A stretch of 64,000 nt of DNA, taken from NCBI RefSeq assembly GCF_900110105.1, contig NZ_FOCL01000016.1:1-64000 (forward strand), read 5' to 3'. This DNA is from Mucilaginibacter gossypiicola. GTDB lineage: Bacteria; Bacteroidota; Bacteroidia; Sphingobacteriales; Sphingobacteriaceae. The notes under the pieces were generated by a model, which saw only the letters and a program-made list of their open reading frames with translations, had not been told where the DNA came from and made no database searches. How positions within the stretch are numbered: the stretch's first letter is position 1; every line of letters begins with the position of its first letter. Made by a program: the position numbers and the translations under genes. Positions 41,030-58,660 of the stretch are shown in pieces.

Positions 41030-41290
41030 TGTAAGGTTAGGGGAAACAAGTATGCAAGTTAATCAAATCGAAATGACTTTAGTTTATAATAAACAAATAA
41101 AGCAACTTTAAACTGATCGCCAAACCATTTGTCCCTTCGCCAGATTATAAGCTCTCCTGCCCAGCAATTAATATTAGGCGCATGTCACTGATCTAATAGC
41201 GATGACCTGTTTTAATAATTTCCTTCCAATATTACTAGGAAGGTTCAGTTATTGGGTAGCATTTAGGGTGTTTTGCAGCCCGAGAAGGAC

Positions 41291-41533
41291 TCGAACCATA
41301 AACTGTACGGTTCGAATTCCGCCCAGTCAGGGATTGTTAAAAGTGCTTTAATTCGCTTAAAACACGCATTTGATCAATTAAGTGGTTCGAATTCCGCCCA
41401 GTTAGGGGATGTTAAAAGTGCTCTAATGAGCTTAAAACCCGCATTTGTTCTAATAGTTGGTTCGAATTCCGACCAGTAAGGCATCATAAAAGAATCACTA
41501 ATTTTCTCAAAATTCGCACCTGATGTTAGGCCG
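41291..41533. repeat. 75-bp-period tandem repeat, locus A (three units)
   Basis: Units begin at 41309, 41384 and 41459, exactly 75 bp apart, each with ggttcgaattccgcccag or a close variant, then 'ttaaaagtgct.taat..gcttaaaa..cgcattt'. The third unit is diverged. The lead-in at 41291-41297 (tcgaacc) is the exact complement of the first unit's ggttcga. The core resembles a tRNA T-arm. Short ORFs read across it are periodic artefacts. The remainder of 41030-42063 shows no other gene; it is very AT-rich after 41750 and should contain the precursor promoter. Confidence 0.8.
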
Positions 41534-47708: not shown

Positions 47709-48651
47709 GCATTTAATTCTCCACGCCCATTGTATCCCGGTTCGAGGTAAAGAACAAGGGGCTATATATGATTTACAAAAAGGGTCACTTATGTTCATTC
47801 CAAATTCGATGATTGATTTGATAGAATATATGAGGGACGAAAGCTATCATAAAACTAGAAAAGTGGTCAACTCTTTAGCGTTTTTCAAGGAGCATGTAGA
47901 TTTTATTTTATCGAATGGCCTAGGATTTTTTACCGATCACCCTCAGCGATTTATTGCTCTTCCCGATCAATATCATTCGCCGGAGGAAATATCGACAGCG
48001 GTTATAGAATACGGAGCTGACAAATTTGATTTAAAGTCCGTAATTAATGAATTGAATATGTTGCGTTGTAAACACATTGAATTCCGTTATATTGACTGTA
48101 ACCCTGATTTCTCAGAACTAAGAACATTGATTGGATACACAAACAATTCTACCATACGGTCGATTGAGCTTCATTTGACTCAAAACGAAAAGATAAGTAA
48201 AGTCAATTTACTCGGTCTGGCAGGCGAGTTTAAGAAGCTTAGAACAATTAACGTTCATAATTCAGCAAGTGCGGATTATGATTTTAAGAATAATATTTTC
48301 TTCCTTGAGAGCGATTGGAAAACTGTCGAGCAAAAACATTTTCCCCATGATGTGTACATTGTCAATATGAAGTTTTTTATGGAAAGTCAGAAGTTCAATA
48401 CTTTTTATAACCAAAAAGTCTGTATTTCCAGAGATGGGTATATTAAAAACTCCTTATTGAACGTAAGGCATTTTGGTCAATATAGTACAAATAATACACT
48501 TACAGATGTAGTTAGAACTGATGAGTTTAAGAAATTATGGTTTATTAGTCCGGATATGATAGAGGAAGTCAAAGAATCTGAAACGAGGTATGCGACCTTG
48601 TTTTCACAAGATGTAGAATTAATAGATGGAAAATATCATTTAATTCATTAA
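47701..48651 (+). CDS. gwsS: SPASM-domain maturase partner, grasp-with-spasm type, cysteine-poor
   Basis: 316 residues from ATG 47701. The middle is an alpha/beta repeat region (IEYGADKFDLKSVINELNML, HIEFRYIDCNPDFSELRTLI) like a radical-SAM barrel lacking its CxxxCxxC. The C-terminal part follows the SPASM layout of this family: FYNQKVCISRDGYIKN, HFGQYS, EFKKLWFISPDMIEEV, ETRYATLF. Cysteines expected after KN, in the 'C-x-DC' and in 'RY-x-C' are Ser, Val/Ser and Thr/other here; only the KVC cysteine remains. The Fe-S clusters are therefore probably not bound. It overlaps the exporter gene by one base (TAATG). Confidence 0.8.
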   Translation: MSKHLILHAHCIPVRGKEQGAIYDLQKGSLMFIPNSMIDLIEYMRDESYHKTRKVVNSLAFFKEHVDFILSNGLGFFTDHPQRFIALPDQYHSPEEISTAVIEYGADKFDLKSVINELNMLRCKHIEFRYIDCNPDFSELRTLIGYTNNSTIRSIELHLTQNEKISKVNLLGLAGEFKKLRTINVHNSASADYDFKNNIFFLESDWKTVEQKHFPHDVYIVNMKFFMESQKFNTFYNQKVCISRDGYIKNSLLNVRHFGQYSTNNTLTDVVRTDEFKKLWFISPDMIEEVKESETRYATLFSQDVELIDGKYHLIH

Positions 48652-50879
48652 TGAAGAGTCTGCAAAGCAAATTTGTCTTTTATCACCAAGCTGATCATAT
48701 GGATTGCGCTGCTACTTGCTTAAGAATGGTAGCTAGATACTACGGCGCAGACTATGATGTCTCACATCTGAGAGATTTGGTAAATACAACCAGGCAGGGG
48801 GCTAGCCTTGCTGGCATCCAAGATGGTGCAGGAGCGATCAGGTTAAAAACACTTGTATCAAAGGGGACAGTGGAAAATTTGGTTAAAGAGCACTTGTTAC
48901 CTGCGGTATTATATTGGAATCCAGATCACTATGTGGTACTTTACAAGATTTCCGAGACAAAAAAAGGCGAATACATATTCTTTATTGCCGATCCCGCACT
49001 TTCAAAATATAAAGTATCTGAAAAAAAATTTAGAGAAAAGTGGGTTAGTGACAACGCCGACGGTGAAGGATTGATCGTGTTTTTCGAGCCGGGCGAGGAC
49101 TTCATGGAAACATACGATGAATATGCGTTAAATTACGTGAAGCCATCGAGGCACTTTTACTGGGAATATGTTAAAGCTCACAAAGCCTCGTTCTCATTGA
49201 TATTGTTAATAACGATAATCTCTTCATTATTTAATCTGGTATTTCCTGTACTTACACAAAAAATTGTAGATACGGGCATCCCGAATAAAGACCTGTCACT
49301 TATCTCACTTTTCTTGTTGTTTCAGATTGGGGCATTTATTGGCAGTTCAGTGTTCGACATGGTTAAGGGTAGGTTATTATATGTTGTTACGACTAGAATT
49401 AATATAAATATATTAACAGAATTTCTTTTAAAGTTAACTAGGCTATCCGTTCGTTATTTCGACAATAAGGTCGCGAGCGATATTACGCAAAGAATTGCTG
49501 ATCATTCGCGCATTGAAAAATTCCTGACAACGAATTTGATTGGAACCATATTTTCGGTTTTCAACTTTGCTTTTTTTTCTTTCTTGATCTTAAAATATGA
49601 TTATAAGATTTTTTTAATCTTCCTGAGCATCACCGTATTTTCCATTTTATGGATGTTCATGTTTGTTAAGAGGCGTAAATCAATAGAATATAAGCGTTTT
49701 GAAGCATACAAGGATTCCTCAAATTCTTCATATGAAGTGATTTATGGAATGAAGGAACTAAAGTTGAATAATGCACAAATAGCCAAAATAGAAGATTGGG
49801 GTGTTGATCAAAAAAAAATCTACGCGATTAACAAAGAGTCGATGCTTTTGGAGCAGAGGCAAAATATAGGAAATGTCTTGATAAATCAAACCAGAAGTGC
49901 ATTAGTAACATTTTACTGCGCTTTTTTGGTCATCCACGGGAAGATATCAATTGGTGAAATGTTAAGTATTTCATTTATGTTAGGTCAATTATCATCTCCT
50001 TTTACACAATTTTTTGAATTTATTAAAGGATGGAACGAGGCATATTTCAGTTTTGATCGGATTAATGAAGTAAAGGAGAGACAAGACGAGGATGATGAAT
50101 TCCTCCCTCATGGTCATACCCTAAAAACAGTTTCGGCATTTGAAAGAATATTGATTTCTAATTTGAATTTTAAATACGATAAAAGTTCTCCGGTTAATGT
50201 TTTGGACGGCATCAATATTGAAATAAAAAAGGGGCAAAAGGTGGCTTTTGTTGGTAATAGCGGAAGCGGGAAGACTACATTGGTTAAATTGTTGTTGAAA
50301 TTTTACCTACCGTCTAAAGGAATTATTAGCGTAGACAGTAATGACTTAGCAGAGTTAGAAGCAAACAGTTGGCGGCAAAAATGCGGTGTTGTGATGCAGG
50401 ATGGATATATATTTTCAGCAACAATATTACAGAATATTTGCTTGGATTCGAAAAAAGTGGATCTGGAACGGGTTAAGCAAGTTTGCCATCTGGCGAACAT
50501 CAAGGATTATATAGAATCCTTGCCAAAAAAATATAACACCAAGATCGGCGGTTCCGGTGTTGGTTTAAGTGGAGGCCAAATTCAACGCATTTTGATAGCG
50601 CGGGCATTATATAAAAATCCTGAAGTGTTGTTTTTTGATGAAGCTACAAGTTCCTTGGATACGGAAAACGAGCGTATAATAATGGAAAACATTAATGAGT
50701 TCAGCACGGGTAAAACGCTCGTTGTTGTCGCTCATAGATTAAGTACTGTAAAAAATGCAGATATGATTTATGTTTTTAATAACGGTAAAATAGTGGAGGC
50801 TGGTAATCATGTTGAGTTATTGGTGAATAAAGGCTTTTATTATAAATTGGTTTCAAATCAATTGGAGTTATCAAACTAA
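48651..50879 (+). CDS. C39-peptidase-containing ABC exporter
   Basis: 742 residues. N-terminal C39 peptidase (about 8-150): catalytic Cys19 in MDCAATCLRMVARYYG, His in PDHYVVLY, Asp in IADPA; it should cut precursor leaders after Gly-Gly. A six-helix transmembrane domain fills about 175-460. The ATPase has Walker A GNSGSGKTT (about 534), signature GLSGGQIQR (about 640), Walker B VLFFDEATSSLD and switch His in VVAHRLS. It processes and exports the modified peptides through the inner membrane. No HlyD-type adaptor is in the window, so passage across the outer membrane needs other components. Confidence 0.95.
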   Translation: MKSLQSKFVFYHQADHMDCAATCLRMVARYYGADYDVSHLRDLVNTTRQGASLAGIQDGAGAIRLKTLVSKGTVENLVKEHLLPAVLYWNPDHYVVLYKISETKKGEYIFFIADPALSKYKVSEKKFREKWVSDNADGEGLIVFFEPGEDFMETYDEYALNYVKPSRHFYWEYVKAHKASFSLILLITIISSLFNLVFPVLTQKIVDTGIPNKDLSLISLFLLFQIGAFIGSSVFDMVKGRLLYVVTTRININILTEFLLKLTRLSVRYFDNKVASDITQRIADHSRIEKFLTTNLIGTIFSVFNFAFFSFLILKYDYKIFLIFLSITVFSILWMFMFVKRRKSIEYKRFEAYKDSSNSSYEVIYGMKELKLNNAQIAKIEDWGVDQKKIYAINKESMLLEQRQNIGNVLINQTRSALVTFYCAFLVIHGKISIGEMLSISFMLGQLSSPFTQFFEFIKGWNEAYFSFDRINEVKERQDEDDEFLPHGHTLKTVSAFERILISNLNFKYDKSSPVNVLDGINIEIKKGQKVAFVGNSGSGKTTLVKLLLKFYLPSKGIISVDSNDLAELEANSWRQKCGVVMQDGYIFSATILQNICLDSKKVDLERVKQVCHLANIKDYIESLPKKYNTKIGGSGVGLSGGQIQRILIARALYKNPEVLFFDEATSSLDTENERIIMENINEFSTGKTLVVVAHRLSTVKNADMIYVFNNGKIVEAGNHVELLVNKGFYYKLVSNQLELSN

Positions 50880-51035
50880 AAGCCTTTTTTCCTCTTTTAT
50901 TGCCAGGTCCTCAATGAACTATTCGCGATGTCCAATATTATCTGAATAAAAAAAGTCGACACAACTATTTACTTCAAAAGGCGATCTTATTTGTTTGCAT
51001 GACCTTGTATTAAATACGTAATAAATTAATAGAAT

Positions 51036-51257
51036 ATGAAAAAACAAACAATTTGTTTAGAAAATCTCTTGGATTTTAGAAGTGGAGAGCAACAAATCAC
51101 AATTTTGTCCACGACATTTGGTGGTGTCTATTGTCACGACGGTGATGTATCCTATTCACAAGACACCTCAACGTCAGGTGATGTATCACAATTGGATGAC
51201 AATTCGCAATCAACGGATGATTCGGAAACTTTGGATAGCAGTGATAACCATGATTGA
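51036..51257 (+). CDS. RiPP precursor peptide 3 (double-glycine leader)
   Basis: 73 residues. Leader with the CLENLLDF block and Gly-Gly in STTFGG. The core of about 43 residues (VYCHDGDVSYSQDTSTSGDV onward) repeats short Asp-Ser/Thr units and ends DSSDNHD, the same ending as precursor 5. There is one Cys in the core and no Lys. It follows the exporter by 156 bp and is probably the first of three tandem precursors. Confidence 0.8.
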   Translation: MKKQTICLENLLDFRSGEQQITILSTTFGGVYCHDGDVSYSQDTSTSGDVSQLDDNSQSTDDSETLDSSDNHD

Positions 51258-51360
51258 CTTTATTTATTAAAAAAAAAATAATCAAGTTTTGTCGTATTAT
51301 TTTATATTATCAAAGTTTATTTTTATATTTAAATGAGCTTATAATCTAAATCTAATTTAT

Positions 51361-51585
51361 ATGACAAAACCTACAATTACCTTAGAAAATCTTCAGATTT
51401 TCAACACAAAAAATCAAATTGCAACCAATTTGTTTGCAACTTACGGTGGTGTTCTTCAATCACACGATAATGATCAATCGGATCAAAACGACTACTCTTA
51501 TTCGAATGATATTTCGGAATACTCGGATTCGAGCCAGCATAACGACGATTGTACTGCCGGTGACACCAGCGCATCAGCAGATTAA
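51361..51585 (+). CDS. RiPP precursor peptide 4 (double-glycine leader)
   Basis: 74 residues. Leader ITLENLQIF and Gly-Gly in FATYGG, then a core of about 44 residues rich in Asp, Ser, Asn, Tyr and Gln (SHDNDQSDQNDYSYSNDIS). It has one Cys (DDCTAG), no Lys, and ends SASAD. The leader block resembles precursors 3 and 5, whereas the core is its own, consistent with a shared enzyme set acting on diversified substrates. Confidence 0.8.
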   Translation: MTKPTITLENLQIFNTKNQIATNLFATYGGVLQSHDNDQSDQNDYSYSNDISEYSDSSQHNDDCTAGDTSASAD

Positions 51586-51603
51586 TTTTATCAAAAGAAA
51601 ATC

Positions 51604-51813
51604 ATGAAAAAAATCAATTTAGAAAGTTTATCAAACTTTAAAGAACAATCCGGCAGCATCTTGTATGCAGTGCTAGGCGGGCAACAGTCAGTATCATATG
51701 ATACATCAGGTATTGGCGATACGTCAACGAATAATGATACGTCAACGGCCGCGGATAACTCCACTGACCACGATGGATCTGATTCTTACGATACATCAGA
51801 TAATCACGATTAA
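51604..51813 (+). CDS. RiPP precursor peptide 5 (double-glycine leader)
   Basis: 69 residues, 18 bp after precursor 4. Leader NLESLSNFKEQSG with Gly-Gly in YAVLGG. The core has the most regular repeat of the five, a D-T-S spacing about every 7-8 residues (YDTSGIGDTSTNNDTSTAAD), ending YDTSDNHD. It contains no Cys or Lys. The regular acid-hydroxyl spacing is what a repeated-macrocycle graspetide would need. A terminator lies 57 bp downstream. Confidence 0.8.
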   Translation: MKKINLESLSNFKEQSGSILYAVLGGQQSVSYDTSGIGDTSTNNDTSTAADNSTDHDGSDSYDTSDNHD

Positions 51814-51870
51814 TAAATCAATCCTCGTCGCTTACACAGCTGCGTTAAAAGTTAAATTAAATAAGCTCAG

Positions 51871-51905: not shown

Positions 51906-52207
51906 TTAGGAATACAGCATTCCGCCAGATTTGATCCCCTACATTGCCGTGTTAACCGTAAAACGTGCAGGCTTCAATTTTAAAGCAGCAAATATCAGTT
52001 GCAATACCATTGAACTTAGTGAATCATATTTATAACTGAATAGGATGTTACTTGTTTGATACTTTGATAGTCATAACTTGTTGATATCCAAAATATAGCT
52101 AATTTCTGGATGCAGCTTAAAAGGGTTGCTATTATTTTTATATCAATCAATAAGCGGTTTGGCTTTATTTCTACTCGGACTACCAATAACCTCAGTCATA
52201 TGATCAC

Positions 52208-52330
52208 TCGAACAATAAACAGTGCGGTTCGAAAATTGCACAGTCAGGGATAATTAAAAGTGCTCTAATTCGTTTAAAGCACGCATTTGATCTAAAAAGT
52301 GGTTCGAATTCCACCCAGTTTAGGGGATCC
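52208..52330. repeat. 75-bp-period repeat, locus B
   Basis: Units begin at 52226 and 52301 (75 bp apart), the second partial. The lead-in ctcgaacaataaacagtgc corresponds to that of locus A. Same orientation as loci A and C. It closes the RiPP block opened by locus A. Confidence 0.8.
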
Positions 52331-52520: not shown

Positions 52521-54074
52521 TTATTCGACTTTAATCAAAATAGGAATGGAGTGTTCACTTTCATTCTTAAGTCTGTCTATCGCGGTAACAACATAGCGGT
52601 ATGTTTTTCCTTTGATGATCCCTCTGTCTGTATAAGTAGTATCGGTGTTGTATTGAATATGGATAATTTTCTTTGGATCGTCGGTGGTTATTAGGTTGTC
52701 GCTTTCATCAAAACGATAAATTACATAGCCATATGCAGGTTCATTATCTGTGGCAGGCAAAGGTTGCTGCCAGGTAAGGGTTACTGATCCAGCAGAAGAA
52801 GTAGCTGCAACCCGGTGGGCTGGATTTGGCGCTACAGAATCGAGCCATAACATAACTGGAGGGAGCGCCGGGTAACGGTAATAGTTGTTTTTTAAAGAGT
52901 CGGTAAAGCCCAGCGGGTTTTTAATAAGCGAGTTTGAACTGAAATAAACACTGCCCTGTACGCGTGGGTTTTTGCGCAGGTATTTAACCTGATTAGGTAA
53001 TTGAGATGGCAGCCTGAACCCTGCAAGCTTGTTTTCAATAATGCGGTAGGGGCCCTGGCCAATGTATAAATGCCGTCCGTATGTATTATTGCCCCACCAA
53101 TCAACCAAAACATTAAAGGCAACCGAGCGGTCATTAAGCAAACGATACAATTGCGGATTGATATAGTCAACCCAGCCTTCTTTTACCCATTTTTTGGAAT
53201 CGGCGTATAGTTCGTAATAGGAGTCGCCACCACGTGTACCAGAGCCTTCTGGATTTTGATATTTATTGGCCCAAATGCCAGAGGGGCTTACGCCGAATTT
53301 TAACCGCGGATTATGCTGATGAATGCTATCGCTTAGCATTTTAACCAATCGGTTAACGTTATCCCTCCGCCATTCCCTGATATCGGTAAATGCCGACCCA
53401 TATTTGGCAAATGTTTGTGAATCGTTGATTTGCTGGCCGGCTACATGGTAGGGATAAAAGTAATCGTCGAGATGGATACCATCAACATCGTAATTATCCA
53501 CCACATCAAGTACAACCCGCACTATATATTCCCTAACTTCGGGAATCCCCGGATCAAACAACTTTTGGCCGCCGTAGGTAAAAAACCATTCGGGCTTAAT
53601 GTTGGTAATGTGGTGCGGACTTAAAGCAGCATAATTAGCATCCTTAGTTGCCCTGTAAGGGTTAAACCAGGCGTGCAGTTCCATGCCACGTTTGTGCGCC
53701 TGTTCTATAGCAAATTGGAGAGGATCATATAAGGGATCGGGTGCTTTGCCCTGTTTGCCGGTAAGCCATTTTGACCATGGCTCGCGGCTTTTAGCGTAAA
53801 ATGCATCGGCGGCAGGCCTTACCTGTAACATAATGGCGTTAATGCCAGCTGCCTGGTGCTGGTCAAAAATGTCAACGAGTTCTTTCTGCTGCTGGGCAGT
53901 GCTTTCTGTAGCGGTTTGAGGCCAGTCTATATTTTCAACAGTTGCTATCCAAACCCCTCTGAATTCTCTTTTAGGGTACGCGTTAACTTTTGTAGTATCC
54001 GTTACCTGCGCGGTTGCTCTGAAGCCTAAAAGGGAAGCCAAAAGTAATCCAGCGATGCTTATTGTTAGTTTCAT
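52521..54074 (-). CDS. DigH/YddW-like glycosyl hydrolase (GHL10) with C-terminal Fn3-like domain
   Basis: About 517 residues from ATG 54074 (MKLTISIAGLLLASLLGF signal). The GHL10 TIM barrel (about 35-370) carries the family's conserved stretches: FRGVWIATVENIDWP, GINAIMLQVRPAADAFY, HKRGMELHAWFNPYRAT, LFDPGIPEVREYIV, DGIHLDDYFYP, KFGVSPSGIWANKY, YINPQLY. Escherichia coli DigH, which cleaves peptidoglycan glycan strands stripped of stem peptides, shares this pattern. Residues about 405-517 look like a fibronectin type III domain (SVTLTWQQPLPATDNEPAYG). Last gene of a four-gene operon that also encodes an amidase able to create denuded glycan. Confidence 0.85.
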   Translation of the reverse strand: MKLTISIAGLLLASLLGFRATAQVTDTTKVNAYPKREFRGVWIATVENIDWPQTATESTAQQQKELVDIFDQHQAAGINAIMLQVRPAADAFYAKSREPWSKWLTGKQGKAPDPLYDPLQFAIEQAHKRGMELHAWFNPYRATKDANYAALSPHHITNIKPEWFFTYGGQKLFDPGIPEVREYIVRVVLDVVDNYDVDGIHLDDYFYPYHVAGQQINDSQTFAKYGSAFTDIREWRRDNVNRLVKMLSDSIHQHNPRLKFGVSPSGIWANKYQNPEGSGTRGGDSYYELYADSKKWVKEGWVDYINPQLYRLLNDRSVAFNVLVDWWGNNTYGRHLYIGQGPYRIIENKLAGFRLPSQLPNQVKYLRKNPRVQGSVYFSSNSLIKNPLGFTDSLKNNYYRYPALPPVMLWLDSVAPNPAHRVAATSSAGSVTLTWQQPLPATDNEPAYGYVIYRFDESDNLITTDDPKKIIHIQYNTDTTYTDRGIIKGKTYRYVVTAIDRLKNESEHSIPILIKVE

Positions 54075-54087
54075 TATCAATCAAATA

Positions 54088-56538
54088 TTAATTTACGCCA
54101 GCCCGGCCTCGTTCCGTTTCCAAACCACTTTTGTTTATCCGCTTTTTGCCTTCCAATCCAAACCGGTAGGCCAATGTTAGGTTTATCTGCCGGGTATCAT
54201 TAATAATATTGCTTGTTATCCATGCATTATTTACCCGGATTTCACGCCGGATCTTCCACGAATGAAAAATATCTGAGCCGGCAAGGGTAATAGTAGCCTT
54301 GTTGTTAAATATCTTTTTTTGCAGGCTTGTGTTTACCCGAAACATCGGCAGATAATATCCTTGTCCAAATGTTGTGCGGGTACGATAAAATCCACTTATT
54401 TCTGCGCTCAAGCCTTTGTTTATTTTAAACTGATTATTACCAGATGCCTCGAAGGTAAACACCCTGTTATAAAGAAAATCATTATTGATTGCTTCGCCCC
54501 GAAATAATTGCTCTGAAACCTGGCCGAAAAGGTTTGCCGTCCACCATTTAAAAATTGGTACAGCTACTGTGGAATAAAGCGCGAGATTATAATTGCTGCA
54601 GATATTCAATGAGGTATTAACCAGCGATTGGCCGTTCACATAGTAAAACTGGATGATCGTATTGCGGCCTTTTTTAAAAGATGTTCCTACGGTTAAAATG
54701 CCCGAGTGAGTAAATGATAAATCGAAGTTAATTGTTTTTTCGGGCAGTAACGAAGCATTTCCCTGGAAAGAAGTATACCTGTCGAAATAAAACGCAAACG
54801 GATTAAGAGATGAATAATCGGGCCGGTTGATCTGGTAGTCGAAAGAGAAATTAAAAGTGTTTACCGAAGCGGTATCTAATTTATAGGCAACATAAAGCTT
54901 TGGAAATAAATTGTTGTAGTTTAAATGTAAAGCAGGATAGGGTATGCCGGCATAATTATACTGCCTGGCTTGCGAACTACTGTTCTCGAACCGCAAACCT
55001 AATTCAAAGCTGAATTTCTTCAGATTTTTATTGAGGCTGATATAAGCGGCGTTGATATGCTCTGTGTAGGTATTACTGCTTGTTAATGAATCGTTTGGTA
55101 TGCCGGGCCGGTTGAAATAAATACCGTTGCTGCCCCTTTTAGAGTAAATGCTTTGTAATCCTGCCGATAATTTGATATCAGCAAAGGTTTTTGTTTCATA
55201 ATCTGATTTTAAGCTGTACACATTTGCCTCAAAAGGATTTTGTGTGATGAGGTTATAATTGTTTGCAAGCTCCGTGCTGTTGGGCAGGTATGTATCGCTG
55301 TTCAGCAGTTGCAGGGCGTTGTCGGTGTAGTGCAGATAATCGGCATCTATCCTGATGTTTTCTCCTGCTTTTTTAAACTTATGCTGATAATAAAGATTGA
55401 GCGCTACATCATTGGTAGGCCTGTTAAGGTCACTTTGTGTTTTGATAATTGAATCGGGCAAGGCATGATTAAATTGCAGCAAATAATTGCCCTGTTCTTT
55501 ATAGGGACTTACGGAACCATCAATTACCAACCCAATGCTGGTGTTTGTATCGAGCGCTGCATCAAAACCCAGCTTATACCGTGTAGTTTTCCTGTTATTG
55601 GTTTCCAGGTTATTTTGTTTGATTGTGTAGTTGTCCGCAGGATTAGCAAAACTAAAATCTCTTTCCCTGTCTACCTTGTAATAATTATTATTAGATGTGT
55701 AAGCAGCATTTCCAAATAAATTTAGCTTCCCCGTTTTATAATTAAGATTTAAGCTATAGTTTGCTTTGTCGTAATGTCCTCGCCCATTAGTGGCTGTCAA
55801 ACCGCCGTTAAATCCCCCAGTATGATTTTTTTTGGTAATGATATTGATCAAACCTGCGTTGCCCTCCACATGATATTTTGCTGGCGGTACCGGCATTAGT
55901 TCTAATTTTTCGATAGTGCCCGAAGGCAGGGACTTTAAATAGTTTACCAATTGTGTTCCGTCTAAAAAGGTTTGCCGGCCGTCAATGTATATCGTTACGC
56001 CTTGTTTTCCGCGCAATGATATGGCATCGTCTGTAACACTAACCCCGGGGGCGTTATTTAAAACCTCAACGGCGCTTACACCGTTGTTTGAAAGCAGTTG
56101 ACTAACATTTACAATGGTCCGGTCTATTTTCTGTTCGGTATAAGGTTTTTGTCCGGCCCTGATCACAACTTCCTTTAAATCATTTTCGGCCAACTCCAAT
56201 TTAATTTCGGACAGATTTGCGGATGGTTTTACCGCATTGATAATCAGCTGCCCGATGGTAACTTCCTTATAGCCCAAATGTTTTATTTGCAGGGAATAAG
56301 TTCCGCTTTGGAGGTTTTTAAATTCAAAGGCTCCCGATTGGTCGCTATTAATAGCATTTTTATACAAGCTGTCTTTCTGGCTTTTAATGATAATCGTTGC
56401 GCCTTCAATCGCCAGGCCATCCTTTACGGTGACAACTTTTCCGCTGATGATGCCCCTTGTTATTTCCACTTTCCCGGTATTTTGAGCCATTGAGTTTAGG
56501 GAAAGCAGTAGCAATAAGGCTGATAAAATCACCTTCAT
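54088..56538 (-). CDS. Outer-membrane TonB-dependent-receptor family barrel
   Basis: 816 residues with signal peptide (MKVILSALLLLLSLNSMAQ). Carboxypeptidase-regulatory-like domain (about 30-115, GIISGKVVTVKDGLAIEGATI), plug (about 120-235: VVIRAGQKPYTEQKIDRTIVN, VLNNAPGVSVTDDAISLRGK, IYIDGRQTF, GLINIITKKN) and a beta-barrel of the 'outer membrane beta-barrel family' class (PDYSSLNPFAFYFDRYT). Genes lie 13 bp downstream and 70 bp upstream. Uptake or sensing of a cell-wall fragment would suit its companions, but no substrate motif is visible. Confidence 0.88.
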   Translation of the reverse strand: MKVILSALLLLLSLNSMAQNTGKVEITRGIISGKVVTVKDGLAIEGATIIIKSQKDSLYKNAINSDQSGAFEFKNLQSGTYSLQIKHLGYKEVTIGQLIINAVKPSANLSEIKLELAENDLKEVVIRAGQKPYTEQKIDRTIVNVSQLLSNNGVSAVEVLNNAPGVSVTDDAISLRGKQGVTIYIDGRQTFLDGTQLVNYLKSLPSGTIEKLELMPVPPAKYHVEGNAGLINIITKKNHTGGFNGGLTATNGRGHYDKANYSLNLNYKTGKLNLFGNAAYTSNNNYYKVDRERDFSFANPADNYTIKQNNLETNNRKTTRYKLGFDAALDTNTSIGLVIDGSVSPYKEQGNYLLQFNHALPDSIIKTQSDLNRPTNDVALNLYYQHKFKKAGENIRIDADYLHYTDNALQLLNSDTYLPNSTELANNYNLITQNPFEANVYSLKSDYETKTFADIKLSAGLQSIYSKRGSNGIYFNRPGIPNDSLTSSNTYTEHINAAYISLNKNLKKFSFELGLRFENSSSQARQYNYAGIPYPALHLNYNNLFPKLYVAYKLDTASVNTFNFSFDYQINRPDYSSLNPFAFYFDRYTSFQGNASLLPEKTINFDLSFTHSGILTVGTSFKKGRNTIIQFYYVNGQSLVNTSLNICSNYNLALYSTVAVPIFKWWTANLFGQVSEQLFRGEAINNDFLYNRVFTFEASGNNQFKINKGLSAEISGFYRTRTTFGQGYYLPMFRVNTSLQKKIFNNKATITLAGSDIFHSWKIRREIRVNNAWITSNIINDTRQINLTLAYRFGLEGKKRINKSGLETERGRAGVN

Positions 56539-56608
56539 GGTATTGAATTAAATGTGTGGATTATTGCAGAACCCCTATCAATCCTAAAATGTGGATTAGG
56601 CTTAAATA

Positions 56609-58054
56609 TTATTCGCCTGTGCCGTAAGCTACTACCGCATTGATGATCTTTTCGGCTATTTTATGCTGGTTATCTGTGTTTGTGATATAGTTAAGATCGG
56701 AAGGATCGGTCATGTAGCCCAATTCTAACAATACTGCCGGCGCTTTATTGTGCCGCAAAATATACAGCGTATTATCGGGCGAGGTTTCACTGATAACCAT
56801 TTTTCGCCGGGTGTTTATTCCGCTTAACTGTTGTAAGCTGGTTTTTAAATGGCGGGCCAGTTTTTTATTCAATGGATACAATTCGTTTTTGTCAATGATC
56901 ACCTCCATTCCATTGGTATGTCTGGCCCAATAGCCGGGCGCGTTTAGGTGTATAGAGATGAAAGCGTCACCTTTATACACAACCCTGCCGCGCAGATCCA
57001 GCTCGCTATCATCAGGCCGTGTTAAAATTGTGCGGATGCCTTGTTTTTCGGCTATGGCTTTGATTTGATTGACAATCTGGAGGTTCAGGTCTTTTTCAGT
57101 ATAACCTCCGGTGCCCACCGTACCGTACTGGCTGCCGCCGTGGCCCGCATCGAGCACCAATACAAAATCCTTTTTCAGGGCTTTGCCGTACACCTTTTCA
57201 ACCGAAGACCAATAGCCGTACATTGCCAATACCGGTACAATAGCCAGGTACCATAACTTTTTTACCGCCGGCGAATGGGCGCTAAATAGCATCACAATCC
57301 TGCTTTTTAAGCTATATGCGCTGAATTGATTAACGAGGCCTGTAGATGAAAAAGAAGATAATTTGAGTATTAACGATGCATATTGTTTAGTGTCGAAAAC
57401 GCCTTTCATTAAATGGTCAACCTCAAACTCGTGAACCTCGTTCAGAGCATTTGCAATAAGATAAACGAATGGGTTAAACCAAAAAAACGCTTTCACAACC
57501 TCCATATACAGGTTGTCGGCAGAGTGAAACAGGCGGGCATGTGTTTCTTCATGCGCTAATACCTGGGCTACTTCTGATGATTGCGTATTGGCCGAACTGA
57601 TAAAAATGTAGTTAAAGAATGATGCGTTCTTTTTATACCGATCCATCACCAAGTAATTTTCCCCGGATCTTACACCATGCTCTTTTGCCTGGTTTACTAT
57701 TTTCAACACGCTGTACGCCATTTTGATAAGTAGAGCTATGCAAATTGCACCATATATGATGCCGGCAATTAATGACCAGTTAGCGGTGTTGGCTTGATGT
57801 GAAATAGGGGGTAAATATTCCTTTTCGGGAGAGATGTTTTGAGAAACGATCACATCCTGGGTTGTTGGGTGGGCTAGAAGCGGCTCCCGTACCTTAATGT
57901 GTATCGCCGGGATTATCAAGCTTATTGTTACAATGAACAACAAGTAAAACCTGGTCATCGAGAAAAAGGTTAGGCACTTTAATACCAGCGGGTATAACGT
58001 ATATCCTAAGCCCATGCATGCACTTGCGCCGATCAGATAATTAAATACGCTCAT
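56609..58054 (-). CDS. M56 (BlaR1-like) membrane protease fused to N-acetylmuramoyl-L-alanine amidase
   Basis: 481 residues. Residues 1-285 are a BlaR1/MecR1-type M56 domain with four membrane helices and the zinc motif HEETH (His168, Glu169, His172) plus NEVHEFEVDH further on. Residues about 297-481 are an Amidase_3 domain: LVLDAGHGG (His305), a GGYTEKDLN glutamate, ISIHLNA and LLELGYMTD, i.e. both zinc His and both Glu are kept. In ordinary BlaR1 the C-terminal part is a penicillin-binding sensor; here it is an enzyme that removes stem peptides from peptidoglycan. It starts 2 bp after the BlaI repressor gene, so M56 cleavage of BlaI would be the usual regulatory logic. Confidence 0.88.
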   Translation of the reverse strand: MSVFNYLIGASACMGLGYTLYPLVLKCLTFFSMTRFYLLFIVTISLIIPAIHIKVREPLLAHPTTQDVIVSQNISPEKEYLPPISHQANTANWSLIAGIIYGAICIALLIKMAYSVLKIVNQAKEHGVRSGENYLVMDRYKKNASFFNYIFISSANTQSSEVAQVLAHEETHARLFHSADNLYMEVVKAFFWFNPFVYLIANALNEVHEFEVDHLMKGVFDTKQYASLILKLSSFSSTGLVNQFSAYSLKSRIVMLFSAHSPAVKKLWYLAIVPVLAMYGYWSSVEKVYGKALKKDFVLVLDAGHGGSQYGTVGTGGYTEKDLNLQIVNQIKAIAEKQGIRTILTRPDDSELDLRGRVVYKGDAFISIHLNAPGYWARHTNGMEVIIDKNELYPLNKKLARHLKTSLQQLSGINTRRKMVISETSPDNTLYILRHNKAPAVLLELGYMTDPSDLNYITNTDNQHKIAEKIINAVVAYGTGE

Positions 58055-58056
58055 AG

Positions 58057-58416
58057 CTATTGTTTATCAATCATTTTCTGGATTTCTTCAATGTCTTTTT
58101 CCGACAGGGTTTCTTCTTTTACCATGAATGACAGCAGTGACTGTGCCGATCCGTCAAAATAATTGGTGATCAGCTTGGTAAAAGAGTGTTTTCCGTATTC
58201 GGCTTTAGTAATGAGCGGATAATATTCATGCGTTTTTCCGTAGGCTTTATGGCCAATATAGTTTTTAGTTTCCAGGAGCCGCACCACAGATGATATCGTG
58301 TTATACGGCGGCTTAGGATCATCTGGCAGATGTTCAATGATATCTTTCACAAAAGCGGATTTCAAATCCCATAAAACCTGCATAATTCGTTCTTCGGTTC
58401 TGGTTAATTCCTCCAT
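58057..58416 (-). CDS. BlaI/MecI/CopY-family repressor
   Basis: 119 residues from ATG 58416 (MEELTRTEERIMQVLWDL); an upstream TTG would add two residues. Winged-helix DNA-binding domain about 1-70 (FVKDIIEHLPDDPKPPYNTISSVVRLLETKNYIGHKAYGK), then a helical dimerisation tail (SLLSFMVKEETLSEKDIEEIQKMIDKQ). BlaI proteins repress their own operon until cleaved by an M56 protease. The partner M56 protein is the next gene and tandem operator-like repeats lie just upstream, so autoregulation of the four-gene operon is likely. Confidence 0.93.
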   Translation of the reverse strand: MEELTRTEERIMQVLWDLKSAFVKDIIEHLPDDPKPPYNTISSVVRLLETKNYIGHKAYGKTHEYYPLITKAEYGKHSFTKLITNYFDGSAQSLLSFMVKEETLSEKDIEEIQKMIDKQ

Positions 58417-58423
58417 AACCAAA

Positions 58424-58463
58424 TATATAACTTATTTTTCAGTTATATAACTTATTTTTCAGT
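58424..58463 (-). promoter_or_regulatory. Probable BlaI operator: two exact 20-bp tandem copies
   Basis: The 20-bp sequence TATATAACTTATTTTTCAGT occurs twice in direct succession (58424-58443, 58444-58463), 8 bp before the blaI-like start codon. At the junction it forms the exact palindrome agttatataact (58441-58452). Position and dyad symmetry fit a repressor site overlapping the promoter. Confidence 0.65.
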
Positions 58464-58545
58464 TTTGTGAATATAGCCTGGTAAATGGCGAGAAAAAAGG
58501 AAGCGTGCCTAATTTTCTCAATTGCATAACCAAGCCCGAGCAAAA

Positions 58546-58660
58546 CTCGGACAACAAACTGTGCGGTTCGAAATGTGCACAGTTAGGGATCGTTAAAAGT
58601 GCTCTAATTCGCTTAAAATGCGCATTTGTTCTAAAAAGTGGTTCGAATTCCGCCCAGCCT
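58546..58660. repeat. 75-bp-period repeat, locus C
   Basis: Units begin at 58565 and 58640, 75 bp apart, the second partial, with the same lead-in (ctcggacaacaaactgtgc). At the first unit aactgtgc and gcacagtt form an 8-bp stem around ggttcgaaat. It marks the far edge of the BlaI operon block, about 215 bp before the tRNA-Phe remnant. The 58661-58875 stretch shows no gene. Confidence 0.8.

Follow-up and report, generated by a model that had tools for sequence, protein, structure and literature searches.

The 64,000-nt window analyzed in this study, from contig NZ_FOCL01000016.1 of the 8.2-Mb genome of Mucilaginibacter gossypiicola, carried on its minus strand a BlaI/M56-amidase circuit with a candidate tandem operator. 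In this circuit, which is a variant of the BlaI-BlaR1 kind, the gene of a BlaI/MecI-type repressor is followed by that of a membrane metalloprotease of the M56 family fused to a peptidoglycan amidase domain (Amidase_3). We favor, with reservations, the reading that the circuit is self-regulated, that a periplasmic peptidoglycan amidase takes the place of the BlaR1 sensor and gates a wall response, and that the GHL10-family glycosidase encoded at the end of the operon is an add-on.

An earlier reading of the letters of this DNA (the original prediction) had proposed a four-gene operon of a BlaI gene, an M56/amidase fusion gene, a gene for an outer-membrane receptor, and a DigH-like gene. This arrangement was confirmed by the open reading frame (ORF) list and Pfam: four ORFs lay in one direction at 58422-52521, with intergenic gaps of 2, 70, and 7 nt, and the end coordinate given in the prediction (58463) extended into the candidate operator. 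The repressor scored 103.4 bits against a Penicillinase_R cut-off of 22.6, and its probable start is the ATG at 58416. The barrel protein matched CarboxypepD_reg, while its Plug match (23.4 bits) was slightly below the cut-off of 23.9 bits.

The M56-amidase fusion protein

Both domains of the fusion were above their Pfam cut-offs (Peptidase_M56, E=1.1e-12, residues 34-256; Amidase_3, E=5.1e-39, 134.5 bits, residues 300-474). The M56 profile matched the solved BlaR1 structure 8exp (E=1.9e-5, positions 18-283), and the M56 part had the HExxH + ExxxD gluzincin motif of BlaR1, as given in the available excerpt of PMC9834060. No penicillin-binding C-terminal domain was detected in the fusion by the Pfam scan, Amidase_3 being found there instead, and the protein scored 20.4 bits on the NCBIfam BlaR1 model, for which the cut-off is 400. 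Thus, the proposal that an amidase replaces the beta-lactam-binding domain in a BlaR1-like sensor was borne out. In the PDB, the amidase part had as its relatives amidases or wall hydrolases of the Amidase_3 family.

Residue conservation was assessed by aligning the window fusion with 46 fusions from 44 loci (n=47). The M56 residues H168, E169, H172, E209, and D213 were kept in all 47 proteins, as were the amidase residues H305 and E320, whereas H369 was kept in 45 and E444 in 41. The window fusion retained all four amidase residues, of which we take H305, E320, and H369 to be the H-E-H zinc set and E444 the catalytic Glu. With the Pfam domain, the zinc ligands, and the catalytic Glu all present, the protein is a predicted N-acetylmuramoyl-L-alanine amidase of the Amidase_3 type, which would cut the MurNAc-L-Ala bond, and the inactive amidase that the original prediction had named as evidence against itself was not borne out by these intact residues. 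Selection was estimated from one pair, the window and Mucilaginibacter gossypii, by a simple counting method. The amidase domain gave a dN of 0.044, a dS of 0.616, and a ratio of 0.07, which in this sequence comparison indicates strong purifying selection; the corresponding dN/dS ratios were 0.01 for BlaI, 0.15 for M56, 0.19 for the first 155 codons of the barrel, and 0.06 for the shared part of the GHL10 gene.

Candidate operator and distribution of the module

Upstream of blaI lay a pair of perfect AACT-N8-AGTT dyads separated by 4 nt. The proximal dyad ended 12 nt upstream of the blaI ATG, and a sequence fitting TAnnTTTG, the Bacteroidetes -7 promoter element, lay between the dyad and the ATG. 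The operator was evaluated in a set of 44 upstream regions, each 200 nt long, many of which are orthologous and hence do not represent 44 independent events. The N8 dyad was present in 40 of the 44 regions (85 sites), whereas dyads with the other spacings from N4 to N12 occurred in 0-2 regions and dinucleotide shuffles gave the N8 dyad in a mean of 0.44 regions. The gap between tandem dyads was exactly 4 nt in 37 of the 44 regions, with no other value between 0 and 8.

Genome-wide, the exact tandem form occurred at 3 places in 8.2 Mb (control pattern, 0), and all three directly preceded a BlaI gene followed by an M56 gene, and no stand-alone target of the tandem operator was seen in the source genome. 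The other two BlaI-M56 pairs with a tandem operator were located at C11:432495 (L209) and C14:423540 (L208); one had a TonB_C domain after M56, and the other a C terminus matching no assigned domain. In the family sample, 38 tandem sites were found in 29 of 61 genomes (control, 0). Among the 31 of these sites examined, 27 adjoined BlaI, two (L180, L184) were about 470-490 bp from it, and two had no BlaI within about 1.5 kb on each side. The genes at these last two sites, encoding a TPR protein (L174, ~1501) and a MORN-like protein (L178, ~1501), are possible stand-alone regulon members.

As is characteristic of the BlaI/MecI family, a dyad operator thus appears to lie at the repressor's own promoter. 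The tandem dyads are a candidate operator of BlaI, to which the repressor would bind, and the BlaI control stated in the original prediction thereby gained a candidate site by comparative sequence analysis. This candidate operator for the BlaI/M56-amidase circuit is a new finding of the present study. The TAnnTTTG element ended no more than 10 nt from the blaI ATG in 29 of the 44 upstream regions (no start was found by the script in 8 of the 44); in the window (58414-58427) and in these 29 regions, it ended 3-4 nt ahead of the start codon. From this position next to the ATG, a leaderless repressor mRNA is predicted, and the blaI mRNA may therefore be leaderless.

The distribution of the fusion, which the original prediction had put forward for checking, was surveyed in samples of 100 genus, 301 family, and 395 phylum genomes; the family and phylum counts are lower bounds because some weaker hits were left unopened. 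Full-length matches were found in 4 of the 100 genus genomes. The fusion was present in at least 38 of the 301 family genomes (the source genome, G049, and 36 genomes of L107-L126 and L131-L146) and in at least 5 of the 395 phylum genomes (the source genome and L127-L130). The fusion protein of M. gossypii was 85% identical to that of the window. BlaI shared a gene run with the fusion in 43 of the 44 loci, the 44th starting at a contig end, and in L109 a second M56 gene was located between the two. In another genus of the family, the module was mostly syntenic and consisted of BlaI, M56-amidase, often a second M56, and finally a barrel from the same family. The outer-membrane component of the original prediction also recurred: a barrel-type gene followed the fusion in 23 of the 44 loci, including loci with other surroundings (L107, L112, L116, L121, L043), and it was truncated in L043 and split in L144. 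These comparisons indicate that the conserved unit is BlaI plus M56-amidase, often with the barrel. In the second M56 genes of the module, the amidase was degenerate (L113, L114) or not detected; an assignment of their C-terminal extensions to LptA/OstA domains is not claimed, the LptD_N match (E=0.042) being below the cut-off. The open-access literature searched yielded no paper describing a fusion of M56 with Amidase_3.

The GHL10 gene and the surroundings of the operon

The features of the operon and its borders are listed in Table 1.

Table 1. Coordinates of the features identified in and around the operon (window positions, unless residues are given)
Feature	Position	Strand	Remarks
113-nt direct repeat, upstream side of operon	58545..58657	-	88% identical to the other copy
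Candidate BlaI operator	58429..58464		two perfect AACT-N8-AGTT dyads (58449-58464, 58429-58444), 4 nt apart
-7 promoter element, TATATTTG	58420..58427	-	fits TAnnTTTG; ends 3 nt before blaI ATG
BlaI/MecI-type repressor	58057..58422	-	121 aa; Pfam Penicillinase_R E=1.2e-29
M56 membrane metalloprotease fused to Amidase_3	56609..58054	-	481 aa; both Pfam domains in one protein
M56 part of fusion	residues 1-285		HEETH at 168-172, E209xxxD213
Amidase_3 part of fusion	residues 300-474		H305, E320, H369, E444
Outer-membrane beta-barrel, TonB-receptor-like, CarboxypepD_reg-like N terminus	54088..56538	-	816 aa; OMP_b-brl_3 E=5.9e-77
GHL10 glycosidase, DigH/Cwp19-like	52521..54080	-	519 aa; ATG 54074; Pfam GHL10 E=3.2e-74
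Terminator-like stem-loop	52260..52282	-	~240 nt past last gene, within 113-nt repeat; consensus match only
113-nt direct repeat, downstream side of operon	52206..52318	-	

The GHL10 protein was 36% identical to Escherichia coli DigH over 395 aligned positions and matched Cwp19 of Clostridioides difficile (E=3e-101). The residues proposed for the Cwp19 pocket in the available excerpt of PMC5765458 (Asp195, Asp196, Tyr197, and Arg132) were matched by D205, D206, Y207, and R143, with the offset taken from the alignment, and the DDYFYP motif was kept. The protein is therefore of the DigH type in its GHL10 domain and conserved pocket, and it may have a specificity for peptide-free glycan. It had a signal peptide, no lipobox Cys (by eye), and a weak fn3-like C-terminal stretch.

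The original prediction had joined the self-regulated circuit to a partnership of the amidase with this DigH-like enzyme. The circuit is well supported by the operator, the fusion, and the intact sites, whereas the partnership is not: of the 44 other loci, the M. gossypii locus was the only one in which GHL10 adjoined the fusion as it does in the window. In M. gossypii, a deletion of about 2.3 kb fuses the barrel to the GHL10 gene and breaks both, but the reading frames of BlaI and the fusion are uninterrupted. The GHL10 gene itself was present in 60 of 61 genus genomes, the exception being a 58%-complete genome, and a second full-length copy was found on contig C19 of the source genome. Neither a BlaI nor an M56 gene was found in eight other GHL10 regions with their flanks (L202-L207, L210, L211), and together with the 1/44 linkage this led us to reject GHL10 as a conserved partner of BlaI/M56. 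In the L202 region, a barrel-type gene was located nearby on the opposite strand. The amidase-DigH pairing is probably local and recent, or incidental, and GHL10 looks like a late, optional addition to the circuit. In the window, the GHL10 gene begins 7 nt after the barrel, and separate transcription of this gene, named in the original prediction as evidence against it, is not suggested by this layout. No rho-independent-terminator-like site was found on the minus strand inside the two larger internal gaps by a consensus scan.

Homology between the window and M. gossypii spanned 58466-52506, from the operator to slightly beyond the GHL10 stop, and the flanks had no blastn match. The 113-nt repeats bracketed the operon in the same orientation and contained the stem-loop; further copies were found at 41277-41401 and 41384-41476 of the window and on contig C15. 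From these homology limits and bracketing repeats, the operon set looks like a discrete cassette. Immediately upstream of the M. gossypii operon copy, an Arm-DNA-binding integrase fragment was located (L043 7196-7546), which is consistent with a mobile past of the operon.

No SusD-like gene was found among the four genes, nor by Pfam in the seven proteins scanned between 48.6 and 61.2 kb; the operon thus lacks the SusC/SusD pair of a Sus-type polysaccharide utilization locus. Additionally, a C39-peptidase ABC transporter gene was located at 48651-50879 on the plus strand, and several minus-strand small ORFs near it (about 51030-51860) encoded short acidic peptides with similar leader-like starts (by eye). 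Together, these genes resemble a cluster for the export of a bacteriocin or peptide.

Proposed mechanism and its alternatives

In the BlaI-BlaR1 system of Staphylococcus aureus, BlaR1 has an outer domain to which beta-lactam binds, and its gluzincin site, at the cytoplasmic face, cuts BlaI directly (available excerpt of PMC9834060). A wall dipeptide, gamma-D-Glu-diamino acid, is a further ligand of BlaI/MecI in Bacillus and Staphylococcus, and its proposed source is wall hydrolysis (PMC3305447, excerpt). The circuit described here resembles the BlaI-BlaR1 and MecI-MecR1 systems of these genera in the BlaI-type repressor beside an M56 gluzincin membrane protease with HExxH + ExxxD, in the C-terminal domain that follows the membrane part, and in the dyads at the regulator promoter. 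It differs in having Amidase_3 where those systems have a class-D-beta-lactamase-like sensor, in having no beta-lactamase or penicillin-binding protein (PBP) gene in the run, and in the tandem form of its AACT-N8-AGTT operator.

We infer the ligand and the direction of signaling, the proteolysis of BlaI, the topology, and the GHL10 substrate in the following scheme. At rest, BlaI would occupy the tandem dyads beside the promoter and keep the operon repressed. The fusion would reside in the inner membrane; its protease site would face the cytoplasm, as BlaR1 homology suggests, and its amidase would lie in the periplasm, where the substrate of an amidase is found. When the amidase meets its substrate or product in an altered wall, the M56 site would become active and BlaI would be inactivated. 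Derepression would then provide more of the sensor-enzyme and of the receptor-like barrel; this lineage alone would also make more of the GHL10 protein, which may cut peptide-free glycan. The net effect would be a response to wall turnover or wall damage. An amidase frees stem peptides, and the fused amidase could thus both report the wall state and enlarge the peptide pool.

A second combination bears on this scheme. In two other Bacteroidota, Ancylomarina (L044 7604-9329) and Agaribacillus (L045 5649-7413), BlaI is followed, as here, by an M56 protein fused to a wall hydrolase, in these cases with an M23 endopeptidase-type domain instead of the amidase. Three near-full-length M56-M23 matches were found in the phylum sample of 395, two of them with an internal stop, and the M23+M56 combination is named as rare, with no role given, in the available excerpt of PMC9662197. 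The occurrence of two unrelated wall hydrolases on BlaI-linked M56 proteins favors wall sensing over coincidence. More tentatively, and as a suggestion that we consider somewhat less likely than not, the BlaI/M56 circuits of Bacteroidota may include a class whose penicillin sensor has given way to an entire peptidoglycan hydrolase domain (Amidase_3, M23). Substrate engagement or turnover by that enzyme would gate the cytoplasmic proteolysis of the repressor, and in some lineages the enzyme, having lost a catalytic residue, would now be a pure receptor.

Several observations weigh against the amidase-sensor scheme. E444 was lost in 6 of the 47 fusions: in L113 and L114 it is the second fusion gene that lacks it, together with H369, and in L117-L119 and L120 it is the fusion linked to BlaI. 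Catalysis is therefore not always required. A simple hydropathy scan gave three clear transmembrane segments in M56, whereas four (N-out/C-out) are expected of the BlaR1 type, and the AlphaFold2 model of the fusion, made from four input sequences, had a mean pLDDT of 36.4, so that the proposed topology rests on homology. No N8 dyad was found in 4 of the 44 regions (L116, L120, L128, L129). In the M56 tree, 9 changes of the amidase label were needed, 5 of them forced by well-supported branches (shuffled labels, mean about 34), indicating in these sequences that the amidase domain comes and goes on M56. A single origin of the fusion was not supported by the same tree, which is rough given its many long branches. 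Finally, GHL10 substrates differ: DigH is a hydrolase specific for denuded glycan (available excerpt of PMC12288456), but DogH, another member, releases maltose from starch according to the part of PMC9967864 available, and the peptidoglycan substrate assumed here is thus itself provisional.

Among the alternatives, the amidase might be the effector, with M56 sensing something else, such as the membrane or envelope state, and the circuit setting the amount of amidase. Active-site residues kept in 41 of the 47 fusions and the strong purifying selection on the amidase domain would fit this, and the GHL10 protein would then be an additional effector; nevertheless, we regard it as rather unlikely, since an output enzyme fused to its own controlling protease would be unusual and the persistence of Glu-less amidases in BlaI-linked proteins (L117-L120) fits binding better than output. 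The joint presence of a TonB-receptor-like barrel and a secreted glycosidase in one operon, in a genome as large as 8.2 Mb, could instead point to scavenging of wall polymer, in which peptidoglycan of foreign or recycled origin, or a different glycan, is imported through the barrel and digested by GHL10 while the fusion detects muropeptides. We consider this improbable, because the run of four contains no further degradative gene, GHL10 is missing from 22 of the 23 other loci that have the barrel, and the substrates of the GHL10 family vary, as the starch activity of DogH illustrates (PMC9967864, excerpt).

A classical beta-lactam response, with the amidase reporting antibiotic damage, would account for the BlaI/M56 architecture; beta-lactams upset the turnover of the wall, and BlaI is capable of responding to peptides derived from it (PMC3305447, excerpt). 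The lack of a penicillin-binding sensor domain in the fusion and the location of all three genomic tandem operators ahead of BlaI-M56 pairs, with no stand-alone target seen, make it slightly less probable still than scavenging. It is also conceivable that the four-gene set now does little in this strain and is carried along as a passenger cassette, as its sharply limited homology to M. gossypii between unrelated flanks, the bracketing repeats, and the two genes broken in M. gossypii might suggest. We give this very little weight, given the dN/dS ratios of 0.01-0.19 over all parts and the synteny of the core module in another genus of the family.

The proposed sensor-enzyme also differs from its enzymatic relatives in setting. 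It shares with the Amidase_3 enzymes AmiA/B/C, CwlD, CwlV, and LytH their H-E-H zinc set and catalytic Glu, and unlike them it is fused to a membrane protease. Likewise, the GHL10 protein keeps the DDYFYP motif of DigH and Cwp19, along with the Asp and Arg proposed for the active site; unlike DigH, whose start has a Cys (by eye), it has no lipobox Cys, and it is linked to a BlaI circuit.

To our knowledge, how bacteria sense their own wall is largely open beyond beta-lactam sensors and PASTA kinases. A repressor circuit that has a wall-cutting enzyme as its putative sensor, a candidate operator, and mutable active sites would make this question directly testable in innocuous soil bacteria. These results also suggest a physiological role for those BlaI-M56 pairs of the Bacteroidota that have no beta-lactam-binding domain.

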